This document shows positions 1 to 39,815 of a stretch of DNA of 64,000 bases, piece after piece. The stretch spans positions 3,373,501 to 3,437,500 of the forward strand of contig NZ_AKVN02000001.1 of NCBI RefSeq assembly GCF_000271485.2, in the 5' to 3' direction. Position 1 is the first letter of the stretch. Each line of letters opens with the position of its first letter. The translations under genes were made by a program, and so were the position numbers. Under the pieces are notes generated by a model. It saw only the letters and a list, made by a program, of their open reading frames with translations. It was not told the origin of the DNA and ran no database searches. The stretch is from Pelosinus fermentans DSM 17108 (GTDB taxonomy: Bacteria > Bacillota > Negativicutes > DSM-13327).

Positions 1-306
1 ACTTCCAGGTAATCCCCCCTCATAATTCTGGCACAAAGTAAATCGCGGTGTAGTTGATAGAAGAATCAGCTGCGCAATTTTCGCGGTATACTCAGTTGCT
101 AATTGCAACGCTAACATTCCTCCTAAAGACCATCCCACCAGTGTAATTTTTTCCTCTTCCTGCTTGCATATCTCCAAAAAAGTTTTTGTCAAGTGTTGAT
201 AATCAGGGTAGTTTGCACAATCATAGATATGCTTTTTCTTCCCTGTAAAGCTTTGCGGCCAAATGGCTTTATTAGTTGCCCAACCATGAATGAAAAGAAC
301 TGACAT
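1..306 (-). CDS. bioH: BioH-like alpha/beta hydrolase, 3' part outside window
   Basis: Partial gene; the N-terminal 102 residues are present and the C-terminus lies beyond position 1. The protein starts with an oxyanion-loop HGW (residues 7-9) and has the nucleophile elbow GWSLGG with Ser60, as in alpha/beta hydrolases of the BioH type (pimeloyl-ACP methyl ester esterase, which releases pimeloyl-ACP for biotin synthesis). The start is ATG at 306, with a weak Shine-Dalgarno (AGGAGTGTCTAG). A perfect BirA-type operator lies 20 bases upstream, which is the main reason to prefer a biotin role over a generic esterase. The Asp and His of the triad are outside the window, so they cannot be checked. 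Confidence 0.75.
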   Translation of the reverse strand, partial: MSVLFIHGWATNKAIWPQSFTGKKKHIYDCANYPDYQHLTKTFLEICKQEEEKITLVGWSLGGMLALQLATEYTAKIAQLILLSTTPRFTLCQNYEGGLPGS

Positions 307-5311: not shown

Positions 5312-5734
5312 CTAATACTTTAAAAGAACTATTCCTGAGGTAATTAGAAAAGCCGCAACAACTTTATAAAATGTCACCTTTTCTCCCAAAAACACGATAC
5401 CTAAAAGCAGGGCAACTAGCGGAAATGCTGCAACAATCGGTGATACACGACCAACTTCACCTAATTTTAGTGCATAATAATAAGCCAGTTGCCCTAATAA
5501 AGCGGCGCAAATACCTTCAAGCACAATATATGTAGTATCTTTTGCTGTTACTTCGGCGATATTACCCCACTGCCCAGACACAGTCATCGTTATAAGAAGA
5601 ATGACGCTAATAACCAGACTACGAATAGTGAGTGCAACCAACGGTTGCATTTCACCTAGCCCCAATTTCCCAAAGATCGGAGCAATACCCCAAAATACCA
5701 TCGCCAGACCAGCCATTAGATAGGCATTGAACAT
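5312..5734 (-). CDS. Single-domain EamA/DMT-type membrane protein
   Basis: A 140-residue protein with about five hydrophobic helices, the first being AYLMAGLAMVFWGIAPIFG and the last AFLITSGIVLL. One EamA repeat only, like the COG2510 group of small drug/metabolite transporter proteins, which probably act as dimers. The start was placed at ATG 5734 because GGAG sits 5 bases before it; the longer frame would add 11 polar residues. It has its own terminator. The substrate is unknown. Confidence 0.85.
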   Translation of the reverse strand: MFNAYLMAGLAMVFWGIAPIFGKLGLGEMQPLVALTIRSLVISVILLITMTVSGQWGNIAEVTAKDTTYIVLEGICAALLGQLAYYYALKLGEVGRVSPIVAAFPLVALLLGIVFLGEKVTFYKVVAAFLITSGIVLLKY

Positions 5735-5842
5735 TTCATCTCCACTCCCTGCTTCATTTACATTCAAACACTAGATGACTCTAAAAACCATTAGCTCCCG
5801 GACCAGGATTCTCAGCATCTTATTTTTGACCGTTAATGAAAT

Positions 5843-6223
5843 TCACCAGTCTTCCTGATCTTCCATCCTCTTTCTCCGGGGAAGTGATTTATATACCAGT
5901 TCATAAGAATGATCAATTAAGCCTCTTATTTCTTTTTCTGGAATACTACCGTCGAGCAGTAGCGTATTCCAGTGCTGTTTATTCAAATGGTATCCGGGTG
6001 TTATGCTTGGATATTGTTGTCTTAATAGCTCAGAATAGTCAGGATCACATTTCAACGAAAGAATATCCAGACCGTGCCTACGTGATATTAGTGCAAATAT
6101 CTTGGATGCTACTTTAATAACAATCACATCGGCGCCGAAAGGATAATCCTCAATTGATCCGGGTTTAGTTAGACAGTATAAATACAGGTCTCTTGAATTC
6201 AAATTAAGTCTCTTTTCTTCCAT
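5843..6223 (-). CDS. MmcQ/YjbR family protein, copy 1
   Basis: A 126-residue protein of the YjbR/MmcQ fold (CyaY-like, suggested DNA or nucleic-acid binding). Motifs seen: N-terminal LYCLTKPGSIEDYPFG, central KIFALISRRHG and C-terminal KQHWNTLLLDGSIP. The start ATG 6223 follows GAGGAATGT. A close paralogue of identical length lies at 26471-26851. No function is established for the family beyond the fold. Confidence 0.9.
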   Translation of the reverse strand: MEEKRLNLNSRDLYLYCLTKPGSIEDYPFGADVIVIKVASKIFALISRRHGLDILSLKCDPDYSELLRQQYPSITPGYHLNKQHWNTLLLDGSIPEKEIRGLIDHSYELVYKSLPRRKRMEDQEDW

Positions 6224-6262
6224 ACATTCCTCACATCCAAAAAATTTAGTAACATGATATTA

Positions 6263-6865
6263 TTACTTTACAATAATAATATCATACTCCATACGCTTTG
6301 CAGTCATTCTCGCAACATTTTCACCCAATAGCCGCTTAATGATGTGAAATGACATATTTATTCCAGCAGAAATTCCGCCAGAAGTAATAATTGAACCTTC
6401 ATCAATAAATTTGCAATTTCTCTCTACTTTCACATCAGGAAACTCCCTTTCAAGACGTTCAATATCCATCCAATGGGTAGTAGCTCGTTTGCCATTAAGC
6501 AATCCTGCCTTCGCTAATAAGAATGCACCTGTACATACAGAAGCAATTAATTCCACTTTATCTTTTTGTTTCTTAATCCACTGTATTACTGTTTCATTAT
6601 TTATTTCTATTTCTTCAGCTCCATATCCGCCTGGAACAATAAGAATATCGAAATCAGGAGCATTTGCGAAACTAAAATTTGGGTGCACCATCAGACCATT
6701 TCGAGTCTTGATCATCTTGCCGTACTGCGATACCGTTTGTACTAAAAATGGCTTATCCAATTGTTTTGGAACAGACGCGATAGAAAAAACCTCAAACGGG
6801 CCTGAAAAATCTAATACTTCAACCTCGTCAAATAACAGTATACCTACACGACAATTTTTTCCCAT
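6263..6865 (-). CDS. DJ-1/PfpI family protein
   Basis: A 200-residue class I glutamine-amidotransferase-like protein. It opens with VGILLFDEVEVLDFSGPFEVF, has the acid ILIVPGGYG and the nucleophile elbow ASVCTGAFLLAKAGLLNG followed by ATTHW, the arrangement of the GlxA-like sensor subgroup but without the AraC helix-turn-helix. ATG 6865 is chosen because GGAGGG lies 7 bases before it. Members act as chaperones, glyoxalases or ligand sensors; this one cannot be assigned. A second intact DJ-1 gene lies at 28085 and a remnant at 43928. Confidence 0.88.
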   Translation of the reverse strand: MGKNCRVGILLFDEVEVLDFSGPFEVFSIASVPKQLDKPFLVQTVSQYGKMIKTRNGLMVHPNFSFANAPDFDILIVPGGYGAEEIEINNETVIQWIKKQKDKVELIASVCTGAFLLAKAGLLNGKRATTHWMDIERLEREFPDVKVERNCKFIDEGSIITSGGISAGINMSFHIIKRLLGENVARMTAKRMEYDIIIVK

Positions 6866-7000
6866 TTGTTTACCCTCCAATTTCAATGTTCTTTAGATAA
6901 CGATTACACTCTTATCTTCCCTTTACCTTCTATTCATTTCCGACCAAAGACTTTACTTTTTTCAAGAATCTCATATCATACTTTATTTTAATTAAAATAC

Positions 7001-7032
7001 AAACTCCTGCAAAGCTAACTTTGCAGGAGTTT
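7001..7032 (-). terminator. Terminator of OPT transporter gene
   Basis: Perfect 14-base arms AAACTCCTGCAAAG and CTTTGCAGGAGTTT with a 4-base loop, then a T-rich minus-strand flank. The minus strand also shows the recurrent GCAGGA-TTT element discussed in the findings. Confidence 0.85.
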
Positions 7033-7065
7033 TCACTATTATAGATGATACAGCTCCCTGATTCA

Positions 7066-9108
7066 TTAATTAGTTTTAAATTTTACACTAACAATGCGAT
7101 AAATAAATATAGCAATCATCGCAATAAATACGAGTAATCCGAGCCAATCGGCTGTGGGGCCAAAGTCTTTACCTACGATTGCCAGCGGCGAATCACTGCC
7201 ACCGCCTGTTACTGAAAGTACAATAATAATGGCAATGATGACTCCCATTATACTTTCGCCAACTATCAGCCCAGACGCAAACAATACACCATGGCGGTTG
7301 CACTTCTCCACATCTTCTTCTATGTTTTTCGGACTCCGCTCAATCGCCCGATTACGTAGATAACGATTCACAAAATAACCCATGACAGCACCTATGATAA
7401 GGGGCACTTCCAAAGTAGGCGGCAAATAAATACCCATTCCTACAGCTAACGGCGGCAGACAGTATTTTGCCGAGTTCTTTTTCAATAGTACATCTACAAT
7501 AATGATTGAAATCCCAACTCCCACGCCGAAAAGAATATAATTCCAATCCAAATTATGACTGAAAATCCCTTGGGCGATCGTAGTCATCAAAGTCGCCTGC
7601 GGTGCAGATAGGACTTGGCTTTCGTCCATTCCAGTGCGTGGCATAGCCCCGACAAAACCATACGCCTCATATAATAAATTCAATACCGGTGCAATGGCAA
7701 ATGCTCCGACGACGCAGCCCACCAACAGAGCTACTTGCTGTTTCCATGGCGTAGCGCCAACAAGATAACCAGTTTTTAAATCTTGCAGATTATCGTTCGA
7801 AATAGCAGCAATACTGACAATCACGCTCGTCATGAATATAGCTAAAGCAATGGCGAATTTACTTCCTATTTCTGTGTCAAAAAGATTGACTGCAGTACCT
7901 ATTCCAAGTACCACAAGAGAAGATACAATAATTCCTAAGATGCCGATCCCCGAAATCGGGCTGGCTGATGTTCCAATTAGTCCGGCCATGTAACCACATG
8001 CAGCAGCTACAAAGAATCCCATGCAAATAGAGATAGCAACACCTGTAACAACAAAAATCCCTGTGGTACCTGCTGACAGGTTCGCATCTGCAATAAAGGA
8101 ATAAAATGTTCCCAGCAACCCAATAACAATAATACTCAAAACCATGGATGTCGTTTTCGGAGACAAATCAGTATCCATGCGGTGCAAACTTTTTCCGGTT
8201 TCTGAACGACTCATAGCTTGTATCGAAATGCGCATGCCATCTATGATTGGTTTTATAAGCGTAATAAGTGTCCATATTGCAGCAATCCCTATGGCACCAG
8301 CACCGATAAGGCGCACCTTTTGTGCCCATATAGCAGATGCAAACGCACTGGCACTCTGCCCAGCTGCCGGAGACATAACAGATGTAAGATAGGGCACAAA
8401 TACACCCCATGACAAAATAGTCCCTGCTAACATTGCCATACCACTGGCAATACCTATTAAATAGCCAGCTCCTAATAAAGCAGAAGAAAAGCCGAGAGGC
8501 AGCTGCGAAGTAACTTTGCCGAAACTGAACCAATAGTGCACTCCCGACGAAATAGCGTGAAAACCCTCTGCACATAAACTGACAATAGCCGAGAAAATAC
8601 CACCAAACATAATATCTTTTATACCATTATCTTTGGATCCCGCAGCATTACTACTGCCTACTTTCAAAATTTCTGCAGCTGCGAGCCCCTCAGGGTAAGG
8701 CAAATCACTATTGACAATCATAGCACGGCGCAGTGGGATTGTGAACAAAACGCCAAGGCCGCCGCCGCAAGCACAAATCATCAAAGTTTGCCAGAAAGCA
8801 AATCCTTGCCAATACCCGAGCATCAGCAAGCCGGGAATAATAAATATAACTGCTGAAAGAGTGCCTGCTGCCGATGCCTGGGTCTGAACCATATTATTTT
8901 CCAAAACATTGGAATCTTTAAACATCTTCAAAATTGCCATAGAAATAACAGCTGCAGGAATAGACGACGAAAACGTGAGTCCTACTTTTAAGCCCAAATA
9001 AACATTGGATGCCGTAAAAATGACCGTAATTATCATTCCCAGCAATATTCCCCGAAGCGTAAGCTCAGGAACATTTAGTTCATGACTCATAAAATCTACT
9101 TGTTTCAT
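7066..9108 (-). CDS. OPT family oligopeptide/metal-chelate transporter
   Basis: A 680-residue integral membrane protein with about 14-16 hydrophobic segments. It begins with ELTLRGILLGMIITVIFTAS and NVYLGLKVGLTFSSSIPAAV, the N-terminal signature of prokaryotic OPT proteins, and has the central NDNLQDLKTGYLVGATPWKQQ segment. The start ATG 9108 is set by GAGGAG 7 bases upstream (an upstream in-frame ATG overlaps this site). Prokaryotic OPTs import peptides or peptide-like chelates; the substrate is open. Single gene with its own terminator and a structured upstream region. Confidence 0.92.
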   Translation of the reverse strand: MKQVDFMSHELNVPELTLRGILLGMIITVIFTASNVYLGLKVGLTFSSSIPAAVISMAILKMFKDSNVLENNMVQTQASAAGTLSAVIFIIPGLLMLGYWQGFAFWQTLMICACGGGLGVLFTIPLRRAMIVNSDLPYPEGLAAAEILKVGSSNAAGSKDNGIKDIMFGGIFSAIVSLCAEGFHAISSGVHYWFSFGKVTSQLPLGFSSALLGAGYLIGIASGMAMLAGTILSWGVFVPYLTSVMSPAAGQSASAFASAIWAQKVRLIGAGAIGIAAIWTLITLIKPIIDGMRISIQAMSRSETGKSLHRMDTDLSPKTTSMVLSIIVIGLLGTFYSFIADANLSAGTTGIFVVTGVAISICMGFFVAAACGYMAGLIGTSASPISGIGILGIIVSSLVVLGIGTAVNLFDTEIGSKFAIALAIFMTSVIVSIAAISNDNLQDLKTGYLVGATPWKQQVALLVGCVVGAFAIAPVLNLLYEAYGFVGAMPRTGMDESQVLSAPQATLMTTIAQGIFSHNLDWNYILFGVGVGISIIIVDVLLKKNSAKYCLPPLAVGMGIYLPPTLEVPLIIGAVMGYFVNRYLRNRAIERSPKNIEEDVEKCNRHGVLFASGLIVGESIMGVIIAIIIVLSVTGGGSDSPLAIVGKDFGPTADWLGLLVFIAMIAIFIYRIVSVKFKTN

Positions 9109-9424
9109 ACCTATACTCCTCATCTAATAAGTTTTTATCCATCTGGATTGATCACACTTTCCTATAAAAAATTCAAGGGCATTCCCCCAATCTATTACTG
9201 CGTTATCATACAAGTTCCTTGTTGAGGGTCGCAGTAAATTGCAATATATTCTCACAAGGCTTATTTTACTCATTTTCTATATTTTTCCACAGAATCCTTC
9301 ATTATTTTTATGTAACCGCGGCAATTCAATGTAAAAATATGTATAAAATTGTTCAAATCTAAGTCGAGGGAACCTAAAACGCACCTAGTCATTACTATTT
9401 TCAACTTCTATCTATATATATTCG
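9109..9424. other. Upstream region of OPT gene
   Basis: No gene. One stem-loop at 9195-9237 (arms TTACTGCG and CGCAGTAA enclosing a second small CAAG/CTTG stem) lies in the leader of the OPT gene on the minus strand. Function not known. Confidence 0.45.
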
Positions 9425-38223: not shown

Positions 38224-38494
38224 TTATTACCGCAATTATATCTTCATATGCGTAAAATAACAACTATACCGTCAGAAATCACTTATATCTTCATTTTAAA
38301 ATGCTTTCCCTGTGGTTCACAATATCCGCCTTAAGAACATTGAGCGTCTTTTTGTCATTTGCGAACAGAGTGAAGCAATCTCTGAACAAGTTGGGGATTG
38401 CTTCGCCATGCTCGCAATGACAGGCTAATGGTACAAAAAAATGAACCGCTGTCACATTGGCAGAGGTTCATTCAATTCCATTCGTTATATTTTA
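38224..38494. other. Intergenic carrying a dispersed palindromic repeat
   Basis: No gene. It has AT-rich sequence and then the palindromic repeat element at 38353-38422, which ends just before the hypothetical gene. Confidence 0.6.
38353..38422. repeat. Dispersed palindromic repeat (TGTCATT-GCGA / GAAGCAATC type)
   Basis: TGTCATTTGCGAACAGAG, TGAAGCAATC, a short loop, GGGGATTGCTTCGCCATG and CTCGCAATGACA form an imperfect palindrome. The pattern TGTCATTGCGAG plus GAAGCAATCC is a very common intergenic mobile or REP-like repeat in many bacteria. Non-coding. Confidence 0.72.
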
Positions 38495-38902
38495 CTATAA
38501 TTTCTCCATAGCTGTTCCAATCTTCATACCATCGAAAAAGCCTTTGTTATAGTGCATATAGGTAGCTGTCACGACCAGTTGAGTAACGGCTTGACTTACT
38601 TTTTCCGGCTGCCCCTCTAGTAGTTGATCGACTTGGTTCATGATTGTTGTATATTCACTAGAGAAGTTACCAAATTGCAACTTTCCTTCTAATTTTTCTT
38701 GGCGCATAAGAACAAATTCCTGCCAATCGTGCAGTACATCGCCTTTATCCAGCCATTGCCCAGTGACTATACTTCTAAGGGGTATGTTCATCTCCACGAT
38801 CCCTTGTTGATTGTGGGGCTGAATGCTCTCTGTTTTCGCTGTCAAATCTCTTTGATGCCGCCGGCTGTTCCTGTTTCTTTTACTTCTTCTTATTGATACC
38901 AA
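38495..38902 (-). CDS. Hypothetical protein downstream of structured leader
   Basis: About 135 residues, basic at the N-terminus (SIRRSKRNRNSRRHQRDL) and otherwise soluble and Gln/Glu-rich, ending HYNKGFFDGMKIGTAMEKL. I do not recognise it. The TTG start at 38902 is favoured because GGGGGG lies 7 bases before it; the longer frame begins at an ATG inside that region. It is preceded on the same strand by the structured RNA (38992-39250), whose terminator would control its expression if the RNA is an attenuator. Confidence 0.6.
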   Translation of the reverse strand: MVSIRRSKRNRNSRRHQRDLTAKTESIQPHNQQGIVEMNIPLRSIVTGQWLDKGDVLHDWQEFVLMRQEKLEGKLQFGNFSSEYTTIMNQVDQLLEGQPEKVSQAVTQLVVTATYMHYNKGFFDGMKIGTAMEKL

Positions 38903-38991
38903 TGTATATCCCCCCATATTCATACTGTATGAGGCTTCTTCTTACTAAGATACCAGAAGAAGCCAGCACACAGCTAGTGTAATGGGAGAAA

Positions 38992-39250
38992 TTAAAAAGC
39001 CCATGCGAGGTTTTTCAAACCTACACATGCGCTTTGCTTCATCTTGATTGCATGCAGACGCTCAGCCTCTGCCAGAACTACAACCCTACTATCCCGAACA
39101 TACCATCCCTTGTTATCAGGGAAAGATCACGGTATAATAAATTGTCGTCGTAGACAGGTAACTGTTACGTGTAGGTGCTTAGGCCACCTGCTCGTGCCTG
39201 AGAGTGTTCCTGCACTCTTGGGACACGGCGACTTTTTAATTTCCACCTAT
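38992..39250 (-). ncRNA. Structured RNA of about 260 nt, ncRNA or leader with attenuator
   Basis: On the minus strand a near-consensus promoter (TTGCAA, 16 bases, TATAAT; at 39278-39283 and 39256-39261) gives a start near 39250. The transcript ends with a terminator: stem GCGCATGTGTAGGTTT with AAACCTCGCATGGGC, then TTTTTAATTT (38991-39032). In between are several stem-loops: AAGAGTG with its complement, AGGTG with CACCT, GTAAC-A-GTTAC, GCAGA with TCTGC, and an outer GTCG with CGAC. The segment ACCTACAC near 39170 is fully complementary to GTGTAGGT of the terminator arm, so a competing antiterminator is possible. No coding frame fits. No known family is recognised (checked by eye: 6S, tmRNA, SRP, RNase P, T-box, common riboswitches). 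Confidence 0.65.
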
Positions 39251-39815
39251 TACTAATTATAGTACTTTTCCTTTGGATTGCAAGCTAAAAGTATAGGGGA
39301 AAACTCAGCCTTTTACAGTAAGAATTATGTTCCATTGACACAGAGCTGGGTGAAAGTTTCATGCCAGTGTTAAGCATCATCTGTGACTGGGTAAAAATTA
39401 CTTGAATCTTCGATTGAAATCTGCCGTTATGTAGCCACTGCCCCATCGATATAACAAGGAAGCTTTTTTTGCCTTAATCAGCAAAGAGAGCTTCCTTATT
39501 ATATTCCATATGAATTGTGAAATCAAAGAAAAACTTCTGATTTATCTTCGGAACAACAGACAACCATTCTTAAGAGCGCATAAAATCATTTGGCGGTGGA
39601 ATACTGTTGGCACTATTGCCGGATTCAAATACACTTTTTCGGCATACCGAGCGAATTATCGGCAATTGGGATTACTGGATTATTTTCTAATATTCTATAT
39701 AACGTACTGGTAAAACAATGGTATTTTAGGATATATCCGGTAGATACTGCAGTCGATATCGGGCTAAAAAATTGGGTTAATCGCTGCCTATTCTACTAAT
39801 AGGAGAAAAATTCAC
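39251..39815. other. Intergenic with promoter, stem-loop and unrecognised open frames
   Basis: Holds the promoter of the RNA (39256-39283), a stem-loop at 39456-39497 (AAGGAAGCT and AGCTTCCTT) and overlapping open frames at 39510-39800. The latter have no clear ribosome binding site and match no family I know. Confidence 0.5.

Follow-up and report, generated by a model that had tools for sequence, protein, structure and literature searches.

Most of what is known about antisense attenuation comes from plasmid copy control, and in plasmids such as pT181 and pIP501 the terminator competes with an upstream antiterminator strand. In pT181, an antisense RNA induces transcription attenuation by kissing-hairpin contact (PMC5415839, PMC3753616), and pT181 attenuators have been suggested to work far from equilibrium (PMC3753616). 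The same source reports that engineered pT181 chimeras gave seven mutually orthogonal regulators, that loop sequence alone did not set their orthogonality, and that the apparent dearth of natural attenuators is a roadblock (PMC3753616). In IncK plasmids, single nucleotide changes in RNAI alter compatibility and only loop positions matter (PMC10724649). In SymE/SymR, the antisense RNA is described as complementary to the 5' end of the mRNA (PMC1891008).

We analysed a 64,000-nucleotide stretch of the Pelosinus fermentans DSM 17108 genome (hereafter, the window), in which an initial annotation had pointed to a structured RNA of about 260 nt ahead of a gene for a basic protein. The cassette found there resembles pT181 and pIP501 in that, by analogy, antisense-induced attenuation is proposed for it. 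It differs from them in being chromosomal and many-copy, in having diversified loops, and in the predicted addition of a stage at which the Shine-Dalgarno sequence (SD) is sequestered. Furthermore, its cargo is varied and is not a replication gene, the copies in its own genome lie on a chromosome-size contig, and a search of 72,556 plasmid records gave no match. Judged from these sequences, the cassette is not a member of the pT181/pIP501 plasmid family by cargo or location.

The likeness to SymE/SymR lies in a predicted antisense RNA that is complementary to the 5' end of the mRNA, and in SymE-family cargo in some copies. However, most copies, including that in the window, carry other cargo; the predicted antisense RNA stops short of the SD, with a terminator lying in between; and the cassette RNA matched no Rfam family. 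With the RNAI of I-complex and ColE1-type plasmids (incompatibility loops), the cassette would share short loops that decide which antisense RNA acts on which target, but its variants stand side by side on one chromosome, before different genes. Like the engineered pT181 chimeras, the copies would form a group of attenuators that differ in the hairpins bound by antisense RNA; unlike them, the set is natural, with up to 25 members per genome, and its orthogonality is a prediction. The best explanation, and one that we consider probable, is that the copies make up a chromosomal family of antisense attenuators similar to those of pT181, in which each copy has its own address, with a second, translational lock.

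Layout of the locus and the predicted structured RNA on the plus strand

The features of the locus are collected in Table 1. The initial annotation had delimited the RNA to 38992-39250, which is right for the leader up to its terminator; the functional unit is larger, as on the minus strand it extends past the SD-sequestering hairpin as far as the start codon (38902). A second transcription unit, predicted from the sequence, lies on the plus strand. Both ends of its antisense RNA are inferred, with an accuracy of within a few nt, and from the coordinates it ends ~230 nt ahead of the SD.

Table 1. Predicted features of the cassette, in window coordinates
Feature	Position	Strand	Details
Leader (mRNA) promoter	39256..39283	-	-35 TTGCAA 39283-39278, 16-nt spacer, -10 TATAAT 39261-39256; start expected at ~39249
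Attenuator leader RNA, ~260 nt	38989..39249	-	Inferred 5' end to terminator U-tract; from fold and relatives
Antisense promoter	39110..39138	+	TTGTTA 39110-39115, 17-nt spacer, TATAAT 39133-39138
Structured antisense RNA, ~100 nt	39145..39243	+	Closing stem, three hairpins, U-tail CTTTTTAATTT 39232-39242; from covariation, strand asymmetry and fold
Antisense closing stem	39144..39232	+	39144-39152 GTCGTCGTA with 39224-39232 CACGGCGAC; U-tail directly after
Hypervariable loop 1	39207..39212	-	CAGGAA in leader
Hypervariable loop 2	39177..39185	-	GGCCTAAGC in leader
Antiterminator strand ACCTACAC	39176-39169	-	Complement GTGTAGGT belongs to antisense hairpin 3
Terminator hairpin	38999..39032	-	Segment GTGTAGGT 39026-39019 can pair with 39176-39169
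Terminator U-tract CTTTTTAATTT	38989..38999	-	Complementary to the leader's own 5' AAATTAAAAAG
SD-sequestering structure	38910..38988	-	CTCCC 38988-38984 with Shine-Dalgarno GGGGGG 38915-38910, around hairpin 38964-38933
Cargo gene, 135 aa from TTG	38495..38902	-	Basic N-terminus; C-terminal part weakly like DUF6809

Several elements that had been noticed by eye were borne out. A consensus promoter (TTGCAA-16-TATAAT) precedes the RNA on the minus strand, the terminator hairpin and its U-tract fold and recur in relatives, and the predicted fold of 38988-39250 is strong, at -93.3 kcal/mol; 200 shuffles averaged -70.1 (z -4.9), and none of them was as good. The impression that the RNA fits no common family also agrees with our searches. 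Rfam gave no match at the gathering cut-off in the 64-kb window, and a search of 38900-39500 with E values up to 10 gave only weak microRNA matches (E 0.18 or worse), none of them over 38992-39250. At 16 further loci, the Rfam matches were to CRISPR repeats and to a group II intron, and did not fall on the RNA. A literature search of open-licence PMC papers found no published description of it. Two surveys of structured RNAs both mention Negativicutes (PMC8632094, PMC6429828), and a word search of their main texts found Pelosinus, Sporomusa, Desulfosporosinus, antisense and SymE unmentioned.

The structured RNA had been read on the minus strand. When homologues were collected, covariation was indeed present, but in a fold of the plus strand, to which the conserved structure belongs. 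Read in that direction, the core folds as a closing stem with three hairpins; standard pairs make up 99.4% of the 1736 cells of the alignment, and 10 of 31 pairs have two-sided changes, two of them in the closing stem (helix 1 of the covariation analysis). None of 500 shuffles reached any of the five covariation measures. Control structures slid along the alignment were 29-50% paired, a comparison that favours the structure because it was derived from the same alignment. On the plus strand, G-U cells number 228 and A-C cells 4 (60 and 4 among variable pairs), and these values swap on the minus strand; likewise, the predicted folding energy of the same stretch is -44.3 kcal/mol on the plus strand and -31.2 on the minus.

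Promoter elements were compared in 85 copies, taken with their flanks from nine genomes. The antisense -10 hexamer TATAAT, which belongs to the search model, is present in 85/85 copies and marks the end of the conserved block. The TTG of the -35 lies outside the model and was found at a spacing of 17 nt (61 copies) or 18 nt (23 copies), which places both hexamers in 84/85 copies around a variable, poorly conserved spacer. The leader promoter matched a simple expression (TTGNNN-15..19-TANNNT) in 75/85 copies. Given the plus strand fold, the G-U asymmetry and this promoter, the 5' part of the RNA first described would be the complement of a structured countertranscript, and the sequences point to a countertranscript made from a promoter of its own within the leader. 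Its putative terminator, a multibranched stem, was not picked up by a consensus terminator scan.

In three copies from different genomes (L182 and L183 of G003, and L153 of G082), nearly the same sequence, ...ATATATGAAGCGCAC..CGTGCGCACAATTA, replaces the leader promoter just before the leader start. It may be one end of an insertion element directed to the leader-promoter site.

Terminator, alternative pairing and Shine-Dalgarno sequence of the leader

In the leaders, the core is followed by a variable middle and then a terminator, and the sequences indicate that this intrinsic terminator separates the antisense target from the gene. The consensus scan did not report the terminator of the window leader (39032-38999), because its stem is interrupted. 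The motif GTGTAGG occurs 20-420 nt past the core in 82/85 copies, compared with 3.8% of mononucleotide shuffles; the exceptions are L156, with one change, and L171 and L181, which are without a recognisable terminator. A narrower set of 77 leaders has GTGTAGG in 77/77, a count that is nearly circular since its terminator expression requires TGTAGG; 82/85 is the freer count. In four leaders (L196, L198, L199 and L200), both arms of the lower terminator stem have changed and GTGTAGG has not.

The initial annotation had proposed that an internal ACCTACAC could capture the terminator arm GTGTAGGT. The two are complementary, both on the minus strand, and the nascent window leader is predicted to fold in this way, with a 10-bp antiterminator, ACCUACACGU/AUGUGUAGGU. 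With the 5' 104 nt blocked, as they would be by an antisense RNA, the terminator formed in the predicted fold of the window leader, and the predicted pairing of the SD rose from 0.32-0.97 to 0.94-1.0 per base. In equilibrium folding, the terminator fold is favoured over the antiterminator by 8.3 kcal/mol on average. The antiterminator was present in only 44/77 nascent leaders, and the equilibrium folds kept the terminator in 77/77. Therefore, unless the antiterminator is an artefact, switching has to be kinetic. The CCTACAC strand also forms part of an antisense helix, and as CCTACAC/GTGTAGG hardly varies, covariation cannot test its pairing.

When a start codon and an ORF were required, 113 distinct leaders could be classified. 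In 101 of them the SD has a complementary stretch of at least 4 nt in a pyrimidine run past the U-tract, and in the other 12 it does not; 26 of 139 leaders were not classifiable on these terms. A looser count, 134/139, took any purine-rich stretch, which is not always an SD. Matched variants of the two strands occur, such as CCCCC/GGGGG and CCTCCC/GGGAGG.

In one copy (L034), GTGTG...CAGCGAAGCTGG follows the attenuator U-tract immediately and truncates the cargo; by eye it looks like the start of a group II intron. Group II introns of this kind often insert after terminators.

Copy-specific loops and the proposed mechanism

Within a core that is conserved elsewhere, variation is greatest in the exposed loops 1 and 2. 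There are 85 distinct loop pairs in the 85 copies, and both loops are common to 0/528 same-genome pairs and 0/3042 cross-genome pairs of copies; taken singly, loop 1 is equal in 18 same-genome pairs and loop 2 in three. These counts use a corrected loop parse. An earlier parse, in which loop 1 was misread in L161 and L181, underlies the near-identical pair, cross-genome divergence and U-turn analyses that follow, and both copies are absent from the near-identical pairs.

We compared 29 disjoint same-genome pairs with a backbone difference of up to 5%. The mean differences were 2% in the backbone, 40% in the loops, 14% in the middle, 15% in the promoter spacer and 32% in the cargo region. The loops differed more than the middle in 27/29 pairs (sign p 8e-7) and more than the promoter spacer in 26/28 (p 1.5e-6), whilst their excess over the cargo region was not significant (17/25 pairs, 17 to 8; p 0.054). 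The clearest example is the pair L206/L209 of the P. fermentans genome, in which the middle and promoter spacer are identical and loop 1 is TTAGAG in one copy and TCTCAC in the other. Loop differences between genomes are as large as those within a genome, and so same-genome cross-talk is not shown to be the driver. By analogy, insulation against such cross-talk is the most economical reading of the diversity, because RNAI loop nucleotides are reported to decide plasmid compatibility in IncK (PMC10724649). U-turn YUNR motifs were in no clear excess, being present in 12 of 45 distinct loop 1 sequences as read in the leader, compared with 15% in shuffles, and showing no excess in loop 2.

In the antisense attenuator that we propose, the minus strand promoter would make the leader mRNA for the 38495 gene, and the plus strand promoter inside the leader would make a structured antisense RNA of ~100 nt that covers the leader's 5' ~100 nt. 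Without antisense RNA, ACCTACAC would capture the emerging terminator arm GTGTAGGT and RNA polymerase would read on, and the 5' end of the leader could also compete for the U-tract/CCC strand that hides the SD. Binding of the antisense RNA would start by kissing of loops 1 and 2; once it is bound, ACCTACAC and the 5' end would be occupied, the terminator would form and transcription would stop. Any transcripts escaping termination would have a closed SD. With copies of the cassette scattered around the chromosome in front of different cargo genes, loop diversification would leave each antisense RNA to silence its own leader only, in the manner of the antisense loops in plasmid compatibility, which might benefit the cell. 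Of the initial suggestion of a riboswitch or attenuator, a probable attenuator ahead of the 38495 gene is supported and is kept in relatives, whilst a riboswitch-like RNA on the minus strand is not supported; the ligand would more plausibly be an antisense RNA than a metabolite.

An alternative that we regard as unlikely, and yet deserving of some weight, is a pair resembling SymR or a type I antitoxin, in which the plus strand RNA represses the cargo through duplex formation, by a translation block or RNase III decay, and the terminator only trims the leader, with no antitermination. The persistence of the terminator in all equilibrium folds and the predicted SD sequestration fit such a pair, as does the report that E. 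coli SymR acts more on the level of SymE protein than on that of its mRNA (PMC1891008). It is harder to reconcile with an antisense RNA that ends so far ahead of the SD, and with a GTGTAGG that is fixed while the lower terminator stem changes. The cargo bears on it in both directions. All three SymE-like proteins tested (3/3) matched Pfam SymE_toxin (PF08845) above the cut-off, but the window cargo is not SymE, there were 0 SymE matches in its own genome, and in G126 two SymE genes lie on a contig without an RNA copy among the matches listed. In G082, one of two SymE genes stands behind an RNA copy.

We consider it very improbable that the locus is a metabolite riboswitch or an independent structured RNA on the minus strand. 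The strong fold, the terminator, the alternative pairing and the lack of an Rfam match fit such an RNA; however, the conserved fold belongs to the plus strand, the exposed loops are hypervariable rather than conserved, the cargo genes are of several unrelated kinds, and the embedded opposite promoter is conserved.

If the antisense-attenuator reading is carried further, Sporomusa-group bacteria might possess a natural chromosomal library of such attenuators, a broader proposal that we make tentatively, as a real possibility. The library would comprise up to ~25 attenuators per genome on one conserved scaffold, with loops under diversifying selection and switches that are mutually orthogonal, and the cassette would move between cargo genes (SymE-type toxins, DUF6809-type proteins and regulators) and between distant genera. 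A chromosomal family whose paralogues, up to 25 in one genome, have diverged most strongly in two short loops would be a natural experiment on the evolution of RNA-RNA specificity, and would supply a ready set of candidate orthogonal RNA switches. It also suggests a regulatory mechanism for DUF6809-type small proteins and SymE-type toxins in Gram-positive relatives.

Cargo genes, copy number and dispersal

The cargo of the 85 copies was typed by similarity to chosen reference proteins. The largest class (23/85) is of a kind found in one genome only, with no Pfam match and a 76% profile probability to DUF6809-type proteins. It is followed by a Sporomusa kind of 61-70 aa (15/85), DUF6809-type proteins (13/85), a Desulfosporosinus kind (7/85), the window kind (4/85) and SymE-type proteins (3/85). 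The 20 copies without a reference match include nine with a family of 83-105 aa (MYRTYRTT...), two with an 84-aa protein, one with an ACT-domain regulator and one with a response regulator. The 84-aa protein (MVMVYTPG...) is the cargo of L170 (G126) and L180 (G146) and is absent behind other copies; the L170 protein had no Pfam match above the cut-off.

The Pfam family DUF6809 was above the cut-off in one of three proteins tested and below it in two, and the literature search (open-licence PMC papers) found no mention of it. The window protein gave no Pfam, PADLOC or PHROGs match, and its two NCBIfam matches were far below the cut-off. Its C-terminal 58 columns came out near DUF6809-type proteins, with a probability of 80% in a profile comparison of small alignments, and we treat this possible relation as a lead only. 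Its predicted structure was poor (mean pLDDT 47) and was left out of the interpretation. Seven cargo proteins, no SymE among them, gave no match in PADLOC. On the minus strand 3' of the window cargo gene (38360-38425) there is a hairpin-like CATTGCGAGCATGGCGAAGCAATC repeat, in a single copy in the window, that looks like a dispersed palindromic repeat.

A blastn search with the stretch found five copies in its own genome, and matches in 23 of the 100 genomes searched (own included) and 13 of 59 genera. Distant copies match mainly over the first ~129 and the last ~60 positions, the part between them having drifted. A pattern scan of named genomes found 83 stretches, and among the 80 matches listed nearly all were from Sporomusa-group Negativicutes (Pelosinus, Sporomusa, Propionispora, Propionispira, Anaerospora, Lucifera, Massilibacillus and several MAGs) and Desulfosporosinus. 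Two pattern matches, L067 in a Gammaproteobacteria MAG and L088 in an Acidobacterium MAG, were judged to be due to chance, the rest of the RNA being missing by eye.

A covariance model built on 56 aligned copies matched 30 of 150 sampled genomes of the class (own included), in 15 of 70 genera. In a sample of the phylum it matched 3/398 genomes, namely its own and two of one other genus (G484 and G522), which we took to be Desulfosporosinus-like because the cargo resembles that of named Desulfosporosinus copies. Counting antisense-strand matches in seven genomes, there were 5, 8, 25 (one of them weak), 12, 8, 11 and 5 copies per genome, the genome with 25 being that of a Sporomusa-group relative; the raw covariance totals are higher, as weak mirror matches on the other strand were counted too. 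Close copies of the cassette, with cargo types of their own, occur outside the class of the window, in L065 and L115 of Desulfosporosinus and in G484 and G522. The sequences of the Desulfosporosinus copies suggest horizontal transfer.

In 11 of the 15 pairs of copies compared, the first homologous positions lie 29-57 nt upstream of the core, level with the -35 hexamer or slightly ahead of it; in 13 of the 15 the homology spans 0.7-1.1 kb, and it stops close to where the gene ends, the flanks being unrelated. Such sharp borders, the 5 to 25 copies in the seven genomes searched one by one and the probable transfer to a Desulfosporosinus-like genus are what a dispersed repeat or mobile element without a regulatory role of its own would leave, but we give this reading hardly any weight, as no repeated target was seen by eye at 22 borders, the promoters, fold and SD pairing are kept while the spacers drift, and a recognised cargo gene is present in 65/85 copies and another ORF of interest in 13 more.

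Phage collections gave no match to the cassette. In IMG/VR, one contig matched (L226); at ~5580-9400 it carries a SymE-type cassette near two large ORFs that, by eye, are serine-recombinase-like, and these are a possible means of spread.

Other small elements lie beside some of the copies. CRISPR-type repeats (Rfam CRISPR-DR2) were found ~0.2-3 kb from two copies (L018, 2806-3174; L211, 258-287 and 3335-3496). On the minus strand of L020, at ~1800-1925, there is a 25-aa ORF for a holin-like type I toxin (Pfam Hol_Tox PF16935, 27.0 bits; cut-off 23.3) with an opposing promoter and hairpin RNA, AAGGACTGACGTG...CACGCCAGCCC. This looks like another type I toxin-antitoxin pair, and similar sequence stands beside the L013 and L024 copies.
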